Shown piece after piece: positions 3,468 to 63,832 of a stretch of 64,000 nucleotides of DNA. How positions within the stretch are numbered: position 1 is the stretch's first letter; each line of letters opens with the position of its first letter. Under the pieces are notes generated by a model. That model was given only the letters and a program-made list of their open reading frames with translations, was not told the origin of the DNA and did not search any database. The translations under genes were made by a program, and so were the position numbers. The DNA comes from Prevotella sp. (lineage in GTDB: Bacteria; Bacteroidota; Bacteroidia; Bacteroidales; Bacteroidaceae), in assembly GCA_017417465.1 (NCBI GenBank), contig JAFPZD010000040.1, forward strand, positions 62,001 through 126,000, in the 5' to 3' direction.

Positions 3468-6173
3468 ATGCTTAAATCTTTCGTGAAACTAACAACACTA
3501 TTGCTGTCATTCCTGTTATGCGCAGCCACCCTACAGGCACAGCAGAAAGGCTACAGCCTGCGGGTGAAGCTGACAGAGAGAGGAACGGGCGAAGCCATCA
3601 TCATGGCCACACTCCACCTACAACCGTCAGGAGCCATGGCCGTCAGCGACATCAACGGACAGGCCACCATCGACAATGTGTCGGCCGGCGACTACGCGCT
3701 GCAAATCAGCTATGTGGGCTTCGAGCCTATCAACACGCGCCTGAAGGTCGACCGCGACCTGACGCTGAACTACCAGATGCAGCCCTCGTCGCTGGCACTG
3801 AAGGAGGTGACCGTCACTGCCAAGCAGCGCGAGAACGGCGCCTCGACCAGCAGTGTCGTTGGTCGTCAGGCCATCGACCACCTGCAGGCCACGTCGCTGG
3901 CCGACGTCATGCAGCTCATCCCTGGCCAGCTGATGGGCAACCGTGACCTGACGCAGCAGTCGAACCTGCAGCTGCGCACGCTGGTGAACAACAACACCAG
4001 CGCCTTCGGCTCCAGCGTCGTCGTCGATGGCATGCCCATGTCGAACAACGGACAGATGACGCAAGGACAGTTTACGCCCTCAGCCTTTACAGGCACCGAC
4101 CTGCGCCAGATATCGGCCGACAACATCGAGGAGGTCGAGGTGGTGCGCGGCATACCTTCGGCCGAGTATGGCGACCTGACCAGCGGTCTCGTCGTCGTCC
4201 ACTCGAAAGTGGGTGTCACACCACTGCAGGTAAAGGCCAAGATCAATCCCGGCCTGCAGAACTACAGTGCGGGCAAGGGCCTGTCGATGGGCGCCGCAGG
4301 CGTGCTGAACGTCAGTGGCGACTATGCCAAGGCATGGGGCGACCCACGCCAGAAGACGCGCAGCTACGACCGCTACACGATGAACATCGGCTGGGGCAAG
4401 GACCTGACGAAGAAGTGGCACGCCGACACGAAGCTGCGCATGATGCGTGCCAAAGACTGGAGTGGCAACGACCCTGACGCCATCGACGATGGCACCTACT
4501 CGAAGAACACCACGACCACGCTCGGACTGACCCACAACGGACGCGTGCGCATGGACCTGCCGCTGATGCGCTCGCTGAAGTACACGCTGGGCATCTCGTA
4601 CAGCATGATCGACTCGAAGAACTCGTCGTTCGTGGCTAATCCCACAGGCCTGCTGCCCATCCTCACGGCCATGGAGACAGGCTACTACGACGTGCCTTGG
4701 ATGACGACGTCCTATTTGGCAACAGGCATCACCGAGAGTCGTCCGGGCAACGTCTTTGTAAAACTGTCCGACGACTTCTTCCTGCGTAAGGGAAAGACGG
4801 TGCAGAGCTTCAAGCTCGGCGCCGACTATCACTACGACTGGAACAGTGGCAAGGGCTACTACAACGAGAACCCGCAGCGCCCCTACCGTCCCAACAGCAA
4901 CGGGCGTCCACGCGCTTTCAACGACATTCCCGGCCTGCACCAGATAGCGCTGTTCGCCGAGGACCAGTTCACCTATAATATAAATAAGGTGAACCGCCTG
5001 CGCATAGGTCTTGGACTGCGCTTCACGGCCCTGCAGCCTTTCAGCGACTTGGCCACTACGGCCCTCTCGCCCCGTCTGAACGCCGCGTTCAGCGTTGCCA
5101 AATGGCTCGACCTGCGTGCCGGCATCGGCATGAACGCGAAGACGCCAGGCCTTAGCTACCTCTATCCCGACAAGAAGTACGACGACCGTGTGGCCGTCAA
5201 CTACATGCCACAGGACGGCTCACAGCAAATACTGAATTACCATACCGAGGTCTACGACGTGAAGCGCTCAGTGGACCTGAAGAACGCCACGACGACCAAG
5301 GTGGAGGTGGGCTTCGACCTGAAACTGCCTGGCCATCGCACGCTCAGCGTGCTGGCCTACCGCGACAAGACGCCGAACGGATTTGGTGCGGCTACTGAGT
5401 ACTTCACCTACGCGTCGAACTACTATACCGTTGACGCATTGCATCCGATGAGCAACCCTATCGACGTCCGTCAGGATCTTGTCTTCATGACCACAGGAAA
5501 GATTGGCAATACCAACACGACGGTGAACCGTGGCCTGGAGTTCGACTTCGAGCTGGGCGAGGTGAAGCCCTTGCACACCAGCTTCTTCTTCAGTGGTGCA
5601 TGGAGCGAGACGAAGACGTGGTCGACCGACCTGAATGCACAGTCGGTGCGCACGGCACTGCTGCCCGCCAGCTACGCCTCACTGGGGCTCACACCCTTCA
5701 AGGTGGTCTATCCTGAAGGCGAGGACTTCGACCGCTACCGCCGCTTCCTCACCACCCTGCGCGCCGTCACGCATATCCCCGCCCTGCACATGGTGGCATC
5801 GTTCACGGCACAGGCCATCTGGCATAACTCCAACTGGAGCTACATCGCCGACAAAGGCGTCATCGGCTACATCACACCCGACCTGCAGTACCATCGACTC
5901 AGCGGTGAGCAGACCATCAGCTACGACAACGTACAGGTCAGCGTCAGCGACCTTGCTATCAAGCACTCTGACAACGACCCGACGAAGAACCCCGTCACGT
6001 GGAATCTCTCGGCACGCCTCACCAAGGAACTTGGCAAGATGGGCGGACTGTCGCTCTACGTCAACAACGCCCTCTTCTACGAGCCCTTCCTCAAGGGTAA
6101 CAACACCACAACGCTCTCACAGCGCAACACCGGCACATTCCAGTTCGGAGCCGAGCTGAGCCTGAACCTGTAG
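3468..6173 (+). CDS. TonB-dependent outer-membrane receptor with carboxypeptidase-like N-terminal domain
   Basis: Predicted outer-membrane active transporter of 901 residues. It has a signal peptide ('TTLLLSFLLCAATLQAQ'), a carboxypeptidase-regulatory-like beta domain at about residues 22-105 ('GTGEAIIMATLHLQPSG', 'YVGFEPINTRLKV'), then the plug ('LKEVTVTAKQ', 'SSVVVDGMPM', 'IEEVEVVRGIPSAEYGDLTSG'). The remainder is a 22-stranded-type barrel ending in 'FQFGAELSLNL'. The ATG at 3468 is chosen because an in-frame upstream TTG at 3429 lies inside the promoter. No SusD homologue follows. Instead a DUF4876 lipoprotein and a DUF6850 barrel do, suggesting a non-SusCD uptake system of unknown substrate. 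Confidence 0.93.
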   Translation: MLKSFVKLTTLLLSFLLCAATLQAQQKGYSLRVKLTERGTGEAIIMATLHLQPSGAMAVSDINGQATIDNVSAGDYALQISYVGFEPINTRLKVDRDLTLNYQMQPSSLALKEVTVTAKQRENGASTSSVVGRQAIDHLQATSLADVMQLIPGQLMGNRDLTQQSNLQLRTLVNNNTSAFGSSVVVDGMPMSNNGQMTQGQFTPSAFTGTDLRQISADNIEEVEVVRGIPSAEYGDLTSGLVVVHSKVGVTPLQVKAKINPGLQNYSAGKGLSMGAAGVLNVSGDYAKAWGDPRQKTRSYDRYTMNIGWGKDLTKKWHADTKLRMMRAKDWSGNDPDAIDDGTYSKNTTTTLGLTHNGRVRMDLPLMRSLKYTLGISYSMIDSKNSSFVANPTGLLPILTAMETGYYDVPWMTTSYLATGITESRPGNVFVKLSDDFFLRKGKTVQSFKLGADYHYDWNSGKGYYNENPQRPYRPNSNGRPRAFNDIPGLHQIALFAEDQFTYNINKVNRLRIGLGLRFTALQPFSDLATTALSPRLNAAFSVAKWLDLRAGIGMNAKTPGLSYLYPDKKYDDRVAVNYMPQDGSQQILNYHTEVYDVKRSVDLKNATTTKVEVGFDLKLPGHRTLSVLAYRDKTPNGFGAATEYFTYASNYYTVDALHPMSNPIDVRQDLVFMTTGKIGNTNTTVNRGLEFDFELGEVKPLHTSFFFSGAWSETKTWSTDLNAQSVRTALLPASYASLGLTPFKVVYPEGEDFDRYRRFLTTLRAVTHIPALHMVASFTAQAIWHNSNWSYIADKGVIGYITPDLQYHRLSGEQTISYDNVQVSVSDLAIKHSDNDPTKNPVTWNLSARLTKELGKMGGLSLYVNNALFYEPFLKGNNTTTLSQRNTGTFQFGAELSLNL

Positions 6174-6230: not shown

Positions 6231-7523
6231 ATGAAAAATATTGCAGTTATGTATAAGTTTAGACCCTCGTTTGCGGCCACCCGCCGATGGACTTTGAGGC
6301 TTCTGACCGCCTTGTCGCCCCTCGTTTGGGGAGGGATTGCAGGTGGACTTCTCACCGCCTGTGTCAACTTCGAAGACGCCACGCATGCCCTCGACGTACA
6401 GGTGCAACTGACCATGCCGCAGGAGTTCACTGCCAGCGACTTTGCCGGCCACGAGGTCGCCATGATACTCGGCACTCAGCGCATCATTGCCACGACCAAC
6501 GATCAGGGCATCGCCACATTCAAAGGCATCGTGCCCGACGTCTACGACATCTCATGCTCGTGGGAGCTAAGCGCCGACGACTACCGCAAGATGACCGCCG
6601 ACCAGCAGGTGGTCAGCGGGGCAACAGTGTCGGGCGCCCTCAACGCCCGCCTCATCAAGGAGACTGAGACCATCGTCCTGCCCACCAAGCTCAGCATCAA
6701 CCGCGACATCCTGATAGGCAAGATCTACTACGCCGGATCGAAGGACAACAACAACCGCAACTACGATGCAGGCAAGTACGTCGAACTCTACAACCAGAGC
6801 GACAACGAGGCCGACGCCAGTGGCCTCTACATCGGACTGGTCGAGGCAGAGAGCAACCAGGCCTACACGCTGGAGAACCTCCACAACGCCTTTGCCGACT
6901 CGGTGGTGCTGCTCAAGCAGGTGTTCCGCATCCCTGCTGACAAGCCCCACATGGTGGCGTCTGGTGGCACCGTGCTCATCGTCAACAGCGCCATCGACCA
7001 CAAGGCTAACAACAACGACATGGAGCACGACCTGACCGATGCCGACTTCGAGGCCAAAGACCACAGTAGCAGACCCGTACCGAACAATCCCAACACGCCT
7101 GCCCTGGAGCTCATCTACACCATGTATCCCTCCATATCGATTATGAACCTGGTGCAGAGCGGCCCCTGCAGCGTGGTCATCTTCCGCACCGATGAAGCCC
7201 CGACCGCATGGCCCAAGGTCTACGCCTTTGGCAAGACCAGCGGCAACCAGTGGATACTGCTACCCAAACGCCTCATCATCGACGGTGTGGAGGTACTCAC
7301 TAACAAGGCAACAGGCATCGACGTGAAGACCAAGCGCCTCTACGACGACATCGATGCTGGCTACACCAACATCAACGCTACCACCGGTAGAAATGGCGAG
7401 ACCGTCTATCGCAGGACCAGCAAGCAGGCCGACGCCGGCCACGTCATCCTCATGGACACTAACAACAGCTCCAACGACTTCACAACTTCAACTACCATAA
7501 AACCGCGCGAATATGACAAGTAA
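6231..7523 (+). CDS. DUF4876-type lipoprotein
   Basis: 430 residues with an N-terminal hydrophobic segment and lipobox ('GLLTAC', Cys44), so probably exported and lipidated. The next part ('ALDVQVQLTMPQEF', 'NDQGIATFKGIVPDVYDISC') resembles a beta-sandwich module. Later segments ('GKIYYAGSKDNNN', 'YVELYNQSDNEADASGLYIG') resemble lamin-tail-like surface domains. I recognise the family as DUF4876 from memory; its function is unknown. The n-region before the hydrophobic core is unusually long, and its DNA contains a G-rich palindrome-like sequence (see findings). A second ATG at 6249 is a possible start. The 3' end overlaps the next gene by 11 bases (ATGACAAGTAA), suggesting translational coupling. 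Confidence 0.72.
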   Translation: MKNIAVMYKFRPSFAATRRWTLRLLTALSPLVWGGIAGGLLTACVNFEDATHALDVQVQLTMPQEFTASDFAGHEVAMILGTQRIIATTNDQGIATFKGIVPDVYDISCSWELSADDYRKMTADQQVVSGATVSGALNARLIKETETIVLPTKLSINRDILIGKIYYAGSKDNNNRNYDAGKYVELYNQSDNEADASGLYIGLVEAESNQAYTLENLHNAFADSVVLLKQVFRIPADKPHMVASGGTVLIVNSAIDHKANNNDMEHDLTDADFEAKDHSSRPVPNNPNTPALELIYTMYPSISIMNLVQSGPCSVVIFRTDEAPTAWPKVYAFGKTSGNQWILLPKRLIIDGVEVLTNKATGIDVKTKRLYDDIDAGYTNINATTGRNGETVYRRTSKQADAGHVILMDTNNSSNDFTTSTTIKPREYDK

Positions 7524-9174
7524 GATAGTATCAATAGTTTCTATAGCTTCTATAGCATCTATAACGTCTATAGCATCTATAGCATCTATAGTATCTATAG
7601 TATCTATAGTATCTATAGTTTCTATAGCATCTATAGTTCCCATTGAGGCTCAAGCGCAAGAAGGCAAATACCGCTTTGCCGACGCCACACAGCTGTGGCG
7701 ACTTACCGACAATGCTGCGGGCCTCACCATCGACGCTGGAGCAACCCGCAACTACAACCGCGGCTTTGCAGAGTTCGACATGCAGCACCGTGAGGGCGAC
7801 TACCGCCGTGTGCAGGAGGGGGGGCAGCGTAACCAGCTCACATTCCACACCGAGCGCTACCAGCGCGTAGGCCACCACCTCGTCGGCTATGGCAAGTTCC
7901 ACTTCGACATGGATCGCACCAAAGACCGTGCCTGGTGCGACGTCATGCGACCCTACAACAGCAATCCCTTCTTCGGGGGCAGTAGCGTCCACGGCAAGTA
8001 CGACACCCAGCAGTTCGATCTCACGGCTGCCCTTGGCACCTTCGACTATAGTGGTTTCCGTTTCGGTAGTCGCCTCGACTATAAGGTGGGCGACCTGAGC
8101 CGTCTGCGCGATCCACGCTCGCGCTCCGAACTGCTGCAATACCGTCTGACACCTGCCGTCACCTACACCACTGGCAACCACACCATAGGCCTCAGCGGTC
8201 ACTACGACCGCCGCAAGGAGAAGATACCGAACATAACCACCGTGCAGCAGGACCCCAACCTGATGTACTACCAGATGACGGGCATGGAGCAGGCAACGGG
8301 CCTTATCGGCGGCTTTAGTGGCTACAACCGCGAATGGGTGAACCACCAGTTCGGCGCACAGCTTGCCTATGGCTACAACAAAACGCAACTCTCATCTGCC
8401 AGTTCTCAGTTCTCACGTCTCAGCTCTCTCACCACCATCGGCATTGCCCGTGGCGTCGAGGATGTATGGGGAACCTACAAGTATGAGCCGGGACGCTACA
8501 CCTCTTATATATATAATGTAGCATCGCACAACCGTCTCAACACGGGTCGTCTCCTTCACCAGCTCGACCTCGACATTGCCTTTACCAAGGGCTACGCCGA
8601 CGAGTATCGCCAGCTGCTCATTCAGGAGCGCGACGCTGAGAAGGGCTACACCAGCTACCACTACGAGACACAGATAGAGTATCGCAAGCGTTATCAGGTG
8701 AAGACCCACGACGCCACGTTGCACTACCGCCTCTCTACCCTCTCGGGAACCGCCATCCGCGGCTATGTCGGTGCTGCTGCCACGCTTCAGGGGGCCAGCA
8801 ACAAGCACCTGCTGCCCACCTCACAGCTGGAGTACCAACGCCAGAACTTCTCGTTCGAGAGTGGCTATGCTTTCTTCAAGAACCACCTATGGCTCGATGC
8901 TACTGTCACCTACAGCCATGCGTCAAAGGCCGACATCGACATTGCCACACCGCAAATGGCGTCCAACACCTATGCTTCCGAGGTGCTCATTCCTGACATG
9001 GCTTACTATGGGGCCGACTACTGGCGCGGTCAGCTGTCGCTGAAGTACGAGTTCCCCTTCATGCTTAAAGGTGCACGCTCAACAGCTTTCGTCAAGGCCT
9101 ACGCCGACGGCATCAAGGCCGATGACGAGCTCGACCGCACGACTGTCGGTCTCTCACTCGGACTCTATTATTAA
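7513..9174 (+). CDS. DUF6850-type outer-membrane beta-barrel protein with repeat-built signal peptide
   Basis: 553 residues. The N-terminus is almost entirely Ser-Ile-(Ala/Val/Thr) triplets from residue 7 to about 42, followed by 'IEAQAQEGKYRF', which looks like a signal-peptidase site. The mature part is rich in alternating aromatic and polar strands and ends in 'DELDRTTVGLSLGLYY', typical of a barrel with a C-terminal aromatic. I place it in DUF6850 from memory; function unknown. It is coupled to the DUF4876 gene by an 11-base overlap. The three genes 3468-9174 probably form one outer-membrane complex. A low-complexity stretch at about 8392-8430 ('SSASSQFSRLSS') looks like an inserted repeat. 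Confidence 0.68.
   Translation: MTSKIVSIVSIASIASITSIASIASIVSIVSIVSIVSIASIVPIEAQAQEGKYRFADATQLWRLTDNAAGLTIDAGATRNYNRGFAEFDMQHREGDYRRVQEGGQRNQLTFHTERYQRVGHHLVGYGKFHFDMDRTKDRAWCDVMRPYNSNPFFGGSSVHGKYDTQQFDLTAALGTFDYSGFRFGSRLDYKVGDLSRLRDPRSRSELLQYRLTPAVTYTTGNHTIGLSGHYDRRKEKIPNITTVQQDPNLMYYQMTGMEQATGLIGGFSGYNREWVNHQFGAQLAYGYNKTQLSSASSQFSRLSSLTTIGIARGVEDVWGTYKYEPGRYTSYIYNVASHNRLNTGRLLHQLDLDIAFTKGYADEYRQLLIQERDAEKGYTSYHYETQIEYRKRYQVKTHDATLHYRLSTLSGTAIRGYVGAAATLQGASNKHLLPTSQLEYQRQNFSFESGYAFFKNHLWLDATVTYSHASKADIDIATPQMASNTYASEVLIPDMAYYGADYWRGQLSLKYEFPFMLKGARSTAFVKAYADGIKADDELDRTTVGLSLGLYY
7531..7638 (+). repeat. 9-bp tandem repeat, 12 units, inside coding sequence
   Basis: Twelve consecutive 9-bp units of the form TCTATAGYN (the first starts TCA and one has ACG at the end) encode Ser-Ile-Ala/Val/Thr. 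Because the period is a multiple of three, gain or loss of units keeps the frame and only changes the length of the signal peptide core. Confidence 0.97.
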
Positions 9175-9205: not shown

Positions 9206-10609
9206 ATGAAAGCAAATTTCAATCTTCTCATCCCAACGGCTTTTCTCCTGCTAGCACTCGCAGGCTGTAAGTCGAACGTGAAGACGGCTGACGAGGTCGT
9301 CGTCTCTGAGTACAATCCCACCGACGCCCGTGCCTTCGGCATGCTTGGCGACGTCAAGGAGGTACACGTCACCATCATCAAGGATAATGCCGGCCCTGGC
9401 GAAGAACCGGTCGTAGAGCGCGACATGCTCGTCATGTCGTTCGACCAGAAAGGGCGCATCACCCGCGACCCCTACGGCAACAAATACGTCTATGATGCTG
9501 ACGGTAACTTCATCGAAGGTGTCTCCGACAAGTCGACCATGGAGCGTGACAGCCTGGGACGCATCATCGCCTATGCCAACAAACTGAACGACAACGACCG
9601 AGAACAGTACGGCATGTCATTCTTCTATGACGAACAGGGACGCATCGCCACCATGACCAGGAGCTACTGGGAGGTGGGCTACGACGACACGCTCGTCTAT
9701 AAGTCTGACAAGGTCTACCCCGACAGGTTCATCAGTGATGGCGCCGTAGAGTCAATGGTCGAACGCGTCTACATTGACTACGACTATAAAAAAATCGATG
9801 AGAAGGGCAACTGGACAGAACGCACGTGCAAGACGCTCTACAAATGCTGGAACGCAGGCGAACAGGAGTCGGACGCTGAGGTCGAACGCTGGACGACAAC
9901 CGAGCAGCGCACCATCAGGTATTATTCAGATGAGCCCGAGAAACCCGCTAACGAAGTGGCTGAGGACGTCGACGACCGCTTCTTTGCCGACATCTTCGGC
10001 TTCGGGCTATTAGGTCACGTGAAGGAGGTGGTCACCACGTCGTTCACTGCTTACGAGGATGGCAAAGGGGCACTTGTGAAACAAGCCGAGATCGAAGGCA
10101 GCCGCGCCACCATCAGCTTTGATGCCGAAGGACGTGTCACTGAAGATCCCTACGGCGGCATCTATGTCTACGATGCCGAGGGCAATTTCGTCAAGGGAGC
10201 CTCAGCCATGTCGATCATGAAGCGCGATGACCAGCAGCGCGTCGTCAACTACCAGACGAAGCAAGACGACGAGGACGATGCCATGTTCCGCAACGACTAC
10301 ACCTACGATCCACAGGGACGACTCGTCAAGGTCAACCAGGTGTTCTGGGAGTCCACAGAGACCTCCACCTTCGTTTACGATGGTGATGAGATTTATCCCA
10401 AGAAGCGCCTCTTCGACAACTACGACGAGGGGCTCCACGTCACCTCCGAGACTACTTACCGCTACACACAATTCGACGACCACGGCAACTGGACCCAGCG
10501 TGAGCTCCGTTACAAGGGCACCGAGGCAGAAGAGGATGGTTTCAACAACAACGACGTCACCCACTGGGACGGTGCAATGATCGAAGAGCGCAGCATCAGT
10601 TATTATTGA
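9206..10609 (+). CDS. Internally duplicated lipoprotein with YD-like repeats
   Basis: 467 residues from the ATG at 9206, chosen because it starts a clean lipoprotein signal ('FLLLALAGCKSN'); the open frame further upstream overlaps the barrel gene. The mature protein is two homologous halves. Both contain a 'LGxVKEV' start, 'GRxTxDPYGxxYVYDAxGNF', an 'FYDEQGRIATM'/'TYDPQGRLVKV' segment, and 'GNWTxR' near the end. The DxxGR and YDxxG pattern recalls RHS/YD repeats, though too short for a full RHS cage. It lies 31 bases after the barrel gene and may be part of that outer-membrane system. Function unknown. Confidence 0.75.
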   Translation: MKANFNLLIPTAFLLLALAGCKSNVKTADEVVVSEYNPTDARAFGMLGDVKEVHVTIIKDNAGPGEEPVVERDMLVMSFDQKGRITRDPYGNKYVYDADGNFIEGVSDKSTMERDSLGRIIAYANKLNDNDREQYGMSFFYDEQGRIATMTRSYWEVGYDDTLVYKSDKVYPDRFISDGAVESMVERVYIDYDYKKIDEKGNWTERTCKTLYKCWNAGEQESDAEVERWTTTEQRTIRYYSDEPEKPANEVAEDVDDRFFADIFGFGLLGHVKEVVTTSFTAYEDGKGALVKQAEIEGSRATISFDAEGRVTEDPYGGIYVYDAEGNFVKGASAMSIMKRDDQQRVVNYQTKQDDEDDAMFRNDYTYDPQGRLVKVNQVFWESTETSTFVYDGDEIYPKKRLFDNYDEGLHVTSETTYRYTQFDDHGNWTQRELRYKGTEAEEDGFNNNDVTHWDGAMIEERSISYY

Positions 10610-52800: not shown

Positions 52801-52850
52801 CTCAACCGAAGGAGTTGAGGAGATGAGGAGTTGAGGAGTTGAGAAGATTA

Positions 52851-52986
52851 GGAGTTGAGGAGGTGAGGAGTTGTGGAGGTAAAGTAGAATAGACCTATTC
52901 CCTACATCAAGCCATTCCTTTTGCAGGCTCTCAGAGCAATAGATGTATTCTACTTTACCTCCACAACTCCTCATCTCCTCAACTCC
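52851..52986. repeat. Palindromic element, copy 1 (GGAGGTAAAGTAGAATA termini)
   Basis: 41-nt arms at 52851-52891 and 52946-52986 with one mismatch; the inner 17 bases GGAGGTAAAGTAGAATA pair perfectly with TATTCTACTTTACCTCC. The 54-nt interior is similar to that of copy 2 at 58666-58752. The outer arms are GAGTTGAGGAG-type low-complexity sequence that extends left to 52808. It lies between convergent genes. Confidence 0.92.
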
Positions 52987-53014
52987 TCAACTCAACAAAG
53001 TTGAGTCTTGCCCC

Positions 53015-55874: not shown

Positions 55875-56010
55875 CAAACTTTTATTTATTCTGCCAAATG
55901 TTCAGACGAAAAAGAGGGCACGGCGCAAGTTTTTTTGGTAAGGCAGGAAGTAGAGGCTGTTTTGGCAACACCAACGGATCGCTCGGAGGAGAACGACAAT
56001 CCGCTCGGAG

Positions 56011-56121
56011 CAAACTGCCAGACTTCTCGGAACAAACTGCCAGACTTCTCGGAACAAACTGCCAGACTTCTCGGAACAAACTGCCAGACTTCTCGGAACA
56101 AACTGCCAGACTTCTCGGCGA
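56011..56121 (+). repeat. 22-bp tandem repeat, about five units
   Basis: Unit CAAACTGCCAGACTTCTCGG plus AA starts at 56011, 56033, 56055, 56077 and 56099; copies are near identical until the last. It lies in the 460-base gap 55847-56307, which contains no credible gene; open frames on both strands through it are periodic translations of the repeat. Confidence 0.96.
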
Positions 56122-62623: not shown

Positions 62624-62627
62624 GTTA

Positions 62628-62878
62628 TTTGACGACCTTTATATTTGACGATTTTACGATTTCACTATTTCACTATTTGGCTGCGCCATCCCTATACCTG
62701 AAGGTACGGCGGCAGCAAACTATTCACTATTCACTATTCACTATAAACTATTCACGATTTCACTATTTCACGATTTGGCTACGCCATCCCTATGCCTGAA
62801 GGTACGGCGGCAGCAAACTATTCACTATTCACTATAAACTATTCACTATAAACTATTCACTATAAACTATTCACTATT
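62628..62878. repeat. Repeat-filled intergenic region
   Basis: Contains inverted AAATCGTCAAATAG-type tracts (62628-62660), two copies of the GGCTGCGCC...GGCGGCAGCAAACTATTCAC block (about 62665-62735 and 62765-62830), and ATTCACTATAAACTATTCAC tandem tracts up to the stop of the YARHG gene. No gene seen. Confidence 0.88.
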
Positions 62879-63832
62879 TCACTCTTCGCTCGCCCTTTCG
62901 TTGTGGTCGTCGCGTGATTCGCAATATTTGATGAGGGCCACGTTCAGCTGCTCGACAAACGAGAGGTGAATGTCGTCGTTCGACTCACGGGGGGCGTACC
63001 ACGGCTGAGCGTCGAAGTACTGTCGCAGGTCGGGCGAGGAGAACACGTAGCCGTGGCGCGCCAGAATGGCGTTGCGCATCAGTCGCAGCGAAGACTTCGT
63101 AAAGTGGTATAACACCGCATCAGTCAGAATCATCTGCGAAGCGAAGTCCCAGCGGCTACTCTCAGAATCATTCCAAGTGAGCTTCGACTTACGTCCGCCG
63201 GGTTTATGCTCCGGATAACCATACTCATTCATTAGGCACTCGTAGACGTTCCAACCCTCACGAGTGGCCTTCAGCTCCCACAACCCTCGCCATGCACCGT
63301 CCTTGATGCTGATGAAGTTGGTGGCAAAACTGTTGAAGGTCCACACCTCGTATGCATAGTCCACACTGCCGATGCTGATATGACGGTCGGCGATGAGCAC
63401 GTCGGGCTTGCCCGAGTCCTGACTGTAACTGCCACGAATCTCGCCAATGCGTGTCTGAATGGTGTTGGTTTCCACACTGTTCATCGTCTGTCGGAACACG
63501 GTCGTCAGGTGGTTCTGGTCGTCGTAGACCAAAATGACCGACTGCCCTTCCTCATCGACACGCTTTGCCGACGTACCCATAGGATAGAAGGCATCCTCAA
63601 AGCCCTCAGCAGGCCGGATGGTGAACGACTGCCAGTCTTCATCGACGGGCACCAACTTGAACACCGACTCCTCGCCTTCGCTCATGCTGTACATACGGAT
63701 GAAGCTACCCGCATTAGTTGCCTCATACTGCCCAGTGCCGCAGTACCAATGCGAACCCGTCTTGATATTGTCGGCTTGCAAGCCCAGCAGGGCCATCATT
63801 GCAAGGCTCAATGTGATAAACGCTCTCTTCAT
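62879..63832 (-). CDS. Secreted YARHG-domain protein
   Basis: 317 residues with a signal peptide ('ITLSLAMMALLGLQAD'). The C-terminal region 'LRLMRNAILARHGYVFSSPD' followed by 'LRQYFDAQPWYAP' is the YARHG domain, an extracellular domain of unknown ligand. The preceding 200 residues are strand-rich and unrecognised. It is probably transcribed in the same direction as, and upstream of, the AAA+/TMEM43/beta-helix genes, but a 255-base repeat region separates them. Confidence 0.82.
   Translation of the reverse strand: MKRAFITLSLAMMALLGLQADNIKTGSHWYCGTGQYEATNAGSFIRMYSMSEGEESVFKLVPVDEDWQSFTIRPAEGFEDAFYPMGTSAKRVDEEGQSVILVYDDQNHLTTVFRQTMNSVETNTIQTRIGEIRGSYSQDSGKPDVLIADRHISIGSVDYAYEVWTFNSFATNFISIKDGAWRGLWELKATREGWNVYECLMNEYGYPEHKPGGRKSKLTWNDSESSRWDFASQMILTDAVLYHFTKSSLRLMRNAILARHGYVFSSPDLRQYFDAQPWYAPRESNDDIHLSFVEQLNVALIKYCESRDDHNERASEE

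Follow-up and report, generated by a model that had tools for sequence, protein, structure and literature searches.

REP-associated transposase genes are flanked by their own word, 23S rRNA intervening-sequence proteins are encoded within rRNA, and variant direct repeats have reportedly been described beside four-helix-bundle proteins of the kind considered here. Four further systems bear on this study. In Neisseria opa, CTCTT repeats lie in the signal-peptide codons of an outer-membrane protein gene (PMC4534519, PMC3960869). TAACTGA heptamer arrays are intergenic, with few copies in open reading frames, occur also in five Bacteroidetes, and have been proposed to be recognized by a post-transcriptional binder (MacGregor 2015, PMC4679880). 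REP elements are palindromic words in transcribed spacers (PMC12306157), and the palindromic elements of Rickettsia are dispersed and occur in frame in various unrelated genes (PMC10969869).

The window analysed here, a 64,000-nucleotide stretch of a Prevotella genome, carries a nine-base array with a CTATAG core and an N3 spacer, about 12.6 units long, that codes for the core of a signal peptide (7525..7637, + strand; TRF, unit list and RNA fold). Like the opa repeats, it is a tandem repeat within a signal-peptide coding region; unlike the opa unit of 5 bases, which shifts the frame and so acts as an on/off switch, its unit of nine bases is frame-neutral, the array is interrupted, and it is a copy of a dispersed family, so that with a period of 9 it lacks the frame-shifting unit length of an opa-like repeat. 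CTATAG arrays resemble the TAACTGA arrays in being short tandem words scattered in spacers, with few in open reading frames. The TAACTGA arrays, however, lie mostly in one orientation a few nucleotides before start codons and are non-palindromic, their sets are mostly exact (36 of 169 are split by related heptamers) whereas CTATAG arrays have free spacers, and the binders suggested for them, S1, Csp and Csr, include no four-helix protein (PMC4679880). As with the Rickettsia elements, the CTATAG family is palindromic, dispersed and in frame within unrelated genes, but the Rickettsia elements are ~150 bp long and single, without nonamer arrays, and are described in metabolic genes, not in signal peptides (PMC10969869). 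With REP elements our case has in common palindromic words located in transcribed spacers and a gene with its own word on its flanks. What separates our case from REP is a linked protein that is a four-helix bundle without a known catalytic domain, together with tandem words and free spacers. This word-linked protein belongs to the same family as the 23S rRNA intervening-sequence and Avd-type four-helix bundles (TIGR04258, TIGR02436, PF05635), but its genes are flanked by word arrays, unlike intervening-sequence genes, which lie in rRNA.

The array and the signal peptide of the DUF6850 gene

The array lies near the start of a DUF6850 gene (7513..9174, + strand, 553 aa; Pfam PF21012, 4.2e-85) whose product is probably an outer-membrane protein. 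Upstream and co-directional with it lie a TonB-dependent receptor gene (3468..6173, + strand; Pfam Plug and TonB_dep_Rec) and a DUF4876 gene (6231..7523, + strand; Pfam), the last 11 nt of which are shared with the beginning of the DUF6850 gene (7513..7523, + strand); a downstream gene (9206..10609, + strand) has an RHS-repeat profile match slightly below the curated cut-off. In 13 of 13 orthologs checked, the DUF6850 start and the upstream stop likewise overlap, by 8 or 11 nt. Farther upstream, positions 884-2530 encode a peptidase of the M6 type that carries a type I dockerin domain (Pfam).

TRF assigns the array a period of 9, 12.6 copies, 87% matches and a score of 142. A single base lies between it and the upstream gene's stop codon (7521-7523), and it is in frame from the ATG at 7513 of the 553-aa open reading frame, which bears out the proposal of an earlier sequence-only reading that a nine-base array supplies the hydrophobic core of the DUF6850 signal peptide. 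Inspection of the codons between this ATG and the conserved mature start found no other in-frame ATG, GTG or TTG. The periodicity of the array (lag-9 score 76.6) was reached by none of 2000 codon shuffles. The palindrome CTATAG is near-constant among its units and the three intervening bases are variable; read in the ATAG phase, its 13 units are of 7 kinds, with a longest identical run of 3, and the same reading's description of a pure array is thereby refuted. Folded as RNA, the array gives -29.1 kcal/mol (z -4.5) with an unfolded centroid, and Rfam models gave no match to positions 7300-7900 at E<=0.1. Each of the 11 CTATAG arrays that were folded gives a ladder of 6-bp stems (z -3.1 to -9.2); such hairpin folding is automatic for a palindromic word and is, alone, no evidence of function. 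A stretch of L193 outside the signal peptide gave z +0.6.

The signal-peptide coding region (7513..7656, + strand) reads MTSK + (I-x-S)n + PIEAQA in translation and in a 30-ortholog alignment, with predicted cleavage after AQA; the translated N-terminus is MTSK-IVSIVSIASIASITSIASIASIVSIVSIVSIVSIASIVPIEAQA-QEGKY. By rule, it has the features of a Sec signal peptide, namely a positive n-region (MTSK), a 40-residue core and an AQA site. The core was rightly called unusually long: its longest stretch free of K, R, D, E, H, N and Q spans 40 residues, with a mean hydropathy of 2.24, against a median of 15 and a maximum of 29 in 43 parsed ortholog rows. Most DUF6850 orthologs have ordinary-looking cleavable signal peptides. 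One ortholog, at locus L180, has the N-terminal sequence MTGKIVSLAISSIAALAPLGAQAQ, also given as MTGKIVSLAISSIAALAPLGAQAQEG, and shares with the window protein both the c-region up to AQAQEG and the mature start. The n-region (MTSK) and the cleavage region (AQAQ) of the window's signal peptide thus look inherited, and we infer export and cleavage of the protein. In a distant DUF6850-like protein (L024), a TLHSSLP-type repeat lies directly behind the signal peptide.

A dispersed CTATAG family and its placement

A search with 401 bases around the array revealed four further CTATAG arrays in the window's genome, a 90.8%-complete assembly of 4.4 Mb in 278 contigs, and an exact three-unit CTATAG pattern matched 29 windows there, compared with 0 for a reversed control. 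Three of the four are intergenic, one of these presumably between the ribosomal protein genes of S11 and S4, and the fourth forms a TonB receptor's signal peptide. Across the three non-coding arrays, deviations numbered 9 of 180 in the core and 37 of 90 in the spacer (p 6e-13), a count biased towards a constant core by the acceptance of units with <=2 core mismatches; a lag-only census blind to the word gave 0.92-1.0 for core columns and 0.50-0.58 for spacer columns in the C254 array. Copying by fold-back, with reverse-complement spacers, was unsupported in the spacer lists looked at. The window array is one copy of a dispersed tandem family of CTATAG + N3.

The array-built signal peptide of the TonB receptor reads MRSLNKPAWWIDAIASIVSIVSIVTIVSIASVEAVAQ (Pfam Plug, 4e-21). 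A relative in genome G065, 83% identical, starts MTKRLAVFALLFIVHCTSFIAQA and has an ordinary signal peptide. Because the receptor is conserved while the signal peptides differ, we read this as a replacement of the signal peptide by an array in the window's lineage. The receptor start at L004 overlaps the upstream stop by 17 nt.

Four-unit CTATAG arrays occur in 23 of 150 genus genomes, with up to 89 windows (reversed control, 0 of 150). A species-level genome collection holds at least 119 stretches with the pattern, and the 80 titles among the matches listed are Prevotella and other Bacteroidales, except for one Binatota bin. Placement was scored on 80 of the at least 119 pattern loci, with 18 edge arrays left out and open reading frames called by a simple longest-first rule: 15 of the 67 arrays with full flanks lie inside open reading frames and 52 outside, with open reading frames covering 89% of the DNA. 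The 51 arrays in classified spacers comprise 45 in tandem, 5 in convergent and 1 in divergent spacers, compared with 32, 8.5 and 10 expected by spacer length (p 6e-5 for the tandem and 1.5e-4 for the divergent class); with the expectation taken from spacer count, the excess in tandem spacers is weaker (p 0.014). Arrays in the 45 tandem spacers have median distances of 15 nt to the preceding stop and 39 nt to the following ATG, and the window array, which starts at 7525 behind the stop of a co-directional gene, fits this placement. By eye, array direction showed no obvious bias relative to transcription. Arrays at L065, L157, L262 and L268 lie 3' of the same gene, which looks like a nitronate monooxygenase by reading.

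In-frame copies were found in genes that, from their Pfam domains, we take to encode AroB, a MetH-like enzyme and GH92, in a presumed MiaB/RimO-type enzyme gene (three units only), and behind the signal peptide of a presumed transglycosylase. At L056, two adjacent genes each carry an in-frame array directly behind the signal peptide (2905-2955 and 3701-3751). The n-region of a lipoprotein signal peptide (M28 peptidase domain) contains a CTATAG array of 6 units at L047 (5851-5901) and of 8 units at L072 (5161-5229); the flanks are 93-95% identical, and the two extra units of L072 repeat neighbouring units.

A general rule that signal peptides of the genus are nonamer arrays was rejected. The window and 40 stretches contain 149 signal-peptide-like genes, just 2 of which carry such an array near the start; both are from the window's genome, one of them on a contig fetched for its array. 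Internal windows of this sample gave 2 of 2469. Among 119 loci chosen for their arrays, a nonamer array lay near the start in 12 of 546 genes and in 3 of 207 signal-peptide-like ones. A 49-aa query for other CTATAG signal peptides in the genus matched in 51 of 396 genomes. Fifty fetched places, including two duplicates and one non-hit, were re-read on both strands and yielded, besides the window gene, seven distinct frames with an ATG shortly before the array: L254, L346 and L347 have a conventional start behind the array, L250, L256, L344 and L356 are array frames of doubtful coding status, and a clear cleavage site with a known secreted domain was found in none of the seven, although the last four may yet be CTATAG signal peptides.

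Other short arrays were observed in the window. Two 8-bp arrays (52810-52878 and 52959-52998) face each other as inverted copies; among neighbouring array pairs in the sample, 14 of 30 were inverted and 9 of 30 direct, against 11 and 11 of 400 random pairs. A near-perfect 22-bp minisatellite (56004-56118, 5.2 copies at 98%) lies within overlapping doubtful open reading frames, and 7- and 8-bp arrays are clustered within a 98-bp duplicated block at 62626-62887.

Other words and the TIGR04258 proteins

A search with the DUF6850 protein matched in 129 of 398 genomes, distant and repeat-only matches included. The codons of the ortholog signal peptides were 9-bp periodic (p<=0.01, codon shuffling) in 7 of 43 distinct parsed rows, the window's included, and the same test at lags 3, 6, 12 and 15 gave 0, 1, 0 and 2 rows; 34 of the 78 ortholog rows were unparsed, two repeat-built ones among them, and one duplicate was removed. 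In genome G074, the DUF6850 signal peptide is made of ACTAGT+N3 units, of which the genome holds 28 windows, one being the signal peptide itself. In genome G408 the units are CCATTRGYC, with eight exact matches that include the signal peptide and two other contigs. As read from their sequences, then, the signal peptide of this one gene was made in three genomes, each time out of a word dispersed in the genome concerned. The signal peptides at L185, L192 and L193 are 9-bp periodic and matched neither of the two word patterns tried, and with these two patterns a link between signal peptide and dispersed word was not found in G239, G391 or G181.

When 287 proteins flanking 183 arrays were clustered, one large cluster emerged, at 12 arrays, and the next largest had 4. 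The large cluster is a four-helix-bundle suffix protein (TIGR04258, 9e-19; TIGR02436; PF05635), and TIGR04258 is present in 84 of 150 genomes. Arrays with 9-10 bp periods lay within 300 bp or inside the frame of 43 of 47 TIGR04258 genes, as opposed to 23 of 409 control genes (113 of 409 with periods of 6-12). The sample comprised 50 loci, three of them without a parsed gene; one of these three, L395, showed 8-bp arrays on manual reading, and L363 and L392 are the same gene. The first 30 loci, the best of the search, had arrays in 28 cases, and the other 20, hand-picked as the four of the window's genome plus others from CTATAG-array genomes, in 15 of 17 parsed.

The words beside these genes, defined after inspection of the flanks, include CTATAG+N3, ACTAGT+N3, CCTAGG+N4, TCTAGA+N3, TGGGAG+N3, TCAGA+N4 and more. 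On a tree of the four-helix core only, which excludes tails possibly encoded by arrays, CTATAG requires 1 change among 61 proteins (16 with CTATAG), against a mean of 14.5 and a minimum of 11 in 300 shuffles. Ten words on 42 proteins require 10 changes, where the minimum possible is 9 and shuffles give a mean of 24.7 and a minimum of 22; the 19 of 61 proteins without a word were counted as not CTATAG and left out of the ten-word count. The full-protein tree requires 2 changes for CTATAG and 10 for the ten words. Judged by these trees, the repeat words follow the TIGR04258 protein tree.

A close CTATAG-clade protein (71-88% identity) occurs in 6 of 150 genomes, five of which have CTATAG arrays. 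Among the 23 CTATAG-array genomes, only 5 encode a protein that reaches 71% identity with the CTATAG-clade query, and G080 encodes one at 64%; the link of CTATAG arrays to any TIGR04258 gene is weak (18 of 23 versus 66 of 127, p 0.02). G408 has a TIGR04258 domain ~0.5 kb from a CCATTRGYC array; no TIGR04258 match was found in G074, with its 28 ACTAGT windows. The window's genome has four TIGR04258 genes (G000:C85, C217, C132 and C21; L392-L395), each beside a different word (CCTAGG, ACTAGT, a CCGGA word and CGTTAT), and no CTATAG-clade or CTATAG-flanked TIGR04258 gene was found in this 90.8%-complete assembly. Either its CTATAG arrays are orphans or the cognate gene is missing from the assembly. 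A ~62-residue piece in G087, 76% identical to the CTATAG-clade protein, suggests a remnant of a protein that was lost with its arrays left behind.

Explanations for the array and their consequences

Several readings of the long, repetitive core were weighed. The earlier suggestion that the core might anchor the protein in the inner membrane, uncleaved, has in its favour a 40-residue uncharged run that exceeds that of any of the 43 parsed ortholog rows; against it, the ortholog L180 has the same c-region up to AQAQEG, and the cleavage region and mature start are common to orthologs that mostly have ordinary-looking cleavable signal peptides, so that we regard an anchor as extremely improbable. 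It had also been proposed that slippage changes the core in steps of three residues without a frameshift. The arithmetic stands, since the period is 9, and units do differ in number (6 versus 8) at another array, between the relatives L047 and L072; the window array itself is interrupted, and slippage should therefore be slowed there. Selection for graded, in-frame tuning of export by a length-variable array is accordingly very unlikely: a period divisible by three, the L047/L072 difference and several orthologs with repeat-built signal peptides are consistent with it, but 7 unit kinds with no identical run longer than 3, and 52 of 67 examined family members lying outside genes, argue against it. 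The same difference in unit number, the periodicity of 7 of 43 ortholog signal peptides and the L180 sequence (MTGKIVSLAISSIAALAPLGAQAQ) would also fit a local origin, in which pre-existing Ile-Val-Ser triplets grew in place by 9-bp slippage and the likeness elsewhere is convergence. We consider this distinctly unlikely, given that the same genome has CTATAG arrays with free spacers at four more sites, three of them non-coding, and that a second signal peptide, that of the TonB receptor, seems to have been replaced by a CTATAG array.

A further reading takes the arrays as conserved sites at which the four-helix protein, as a regulator, binds RNA or DNA, and which would mark a regulon. The intercistronic position of the arrays, their conserved core and the matching of word to protein point in this direction. 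The flanked genes, however, are not a shared set, because the only cluster with more than four members among the 287 flanking proteins is the four-helix gene itself, and in-frame copies occur in housekeeping genes; a regulon therefore seems unlikely to us.

We think it probable that the array came from the dispersed family, is read as a signal-peptide core through the start/stop overlap, and belongs to words that are kept or spread by cognate suffix proteins. On this explanation, CTATAG + N3 arrays would settle chiefly between co-directional genes, immediately past a stop codon. Because the DUF6850 start codon lies inside the upstream gene's end, this favoured place would be translated, and an array there would be read as the h-region of a signal peptide. 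In this orientation one of the open frames, ATA-GNN-NCT, reads Ile-Val/Ala-Ser, which is predicted to be hydrophobic enough for a Sec h-region, placed here between an apparently inherited n-region (MTSK) and an apparently inherited cleavage region (AQAQ). A cognate TIGR04258 suffix protein would help to maintain and spread each word, perhaps by binding that word as a hairpin of DNA or RNA. More tentatively, and with somewhat less than even confidence, we propose that this pairing is Prevotella-wide, with each suffix-protein clade writing or spreading its own 8-10 bp word and with words independently becoming signal peptides at the overlapping start.

Signal peptides are usually thought to change through point mutation and small indels. 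If the proposed pairing is true, secretion signals would arise ready-made from dispersed DNA repeats: a dispersed repeat appears to have become the core of two signal peptides in the window's genome, and in relatives other words appear to have taken the same place. How secretion signals originate from non-coding DNA would thereby become directly testable. The match between word and clade would, in addition, provide a candidate target for each four-helix-bundle protein, readable beside its gene, in a family that is poorly understood.
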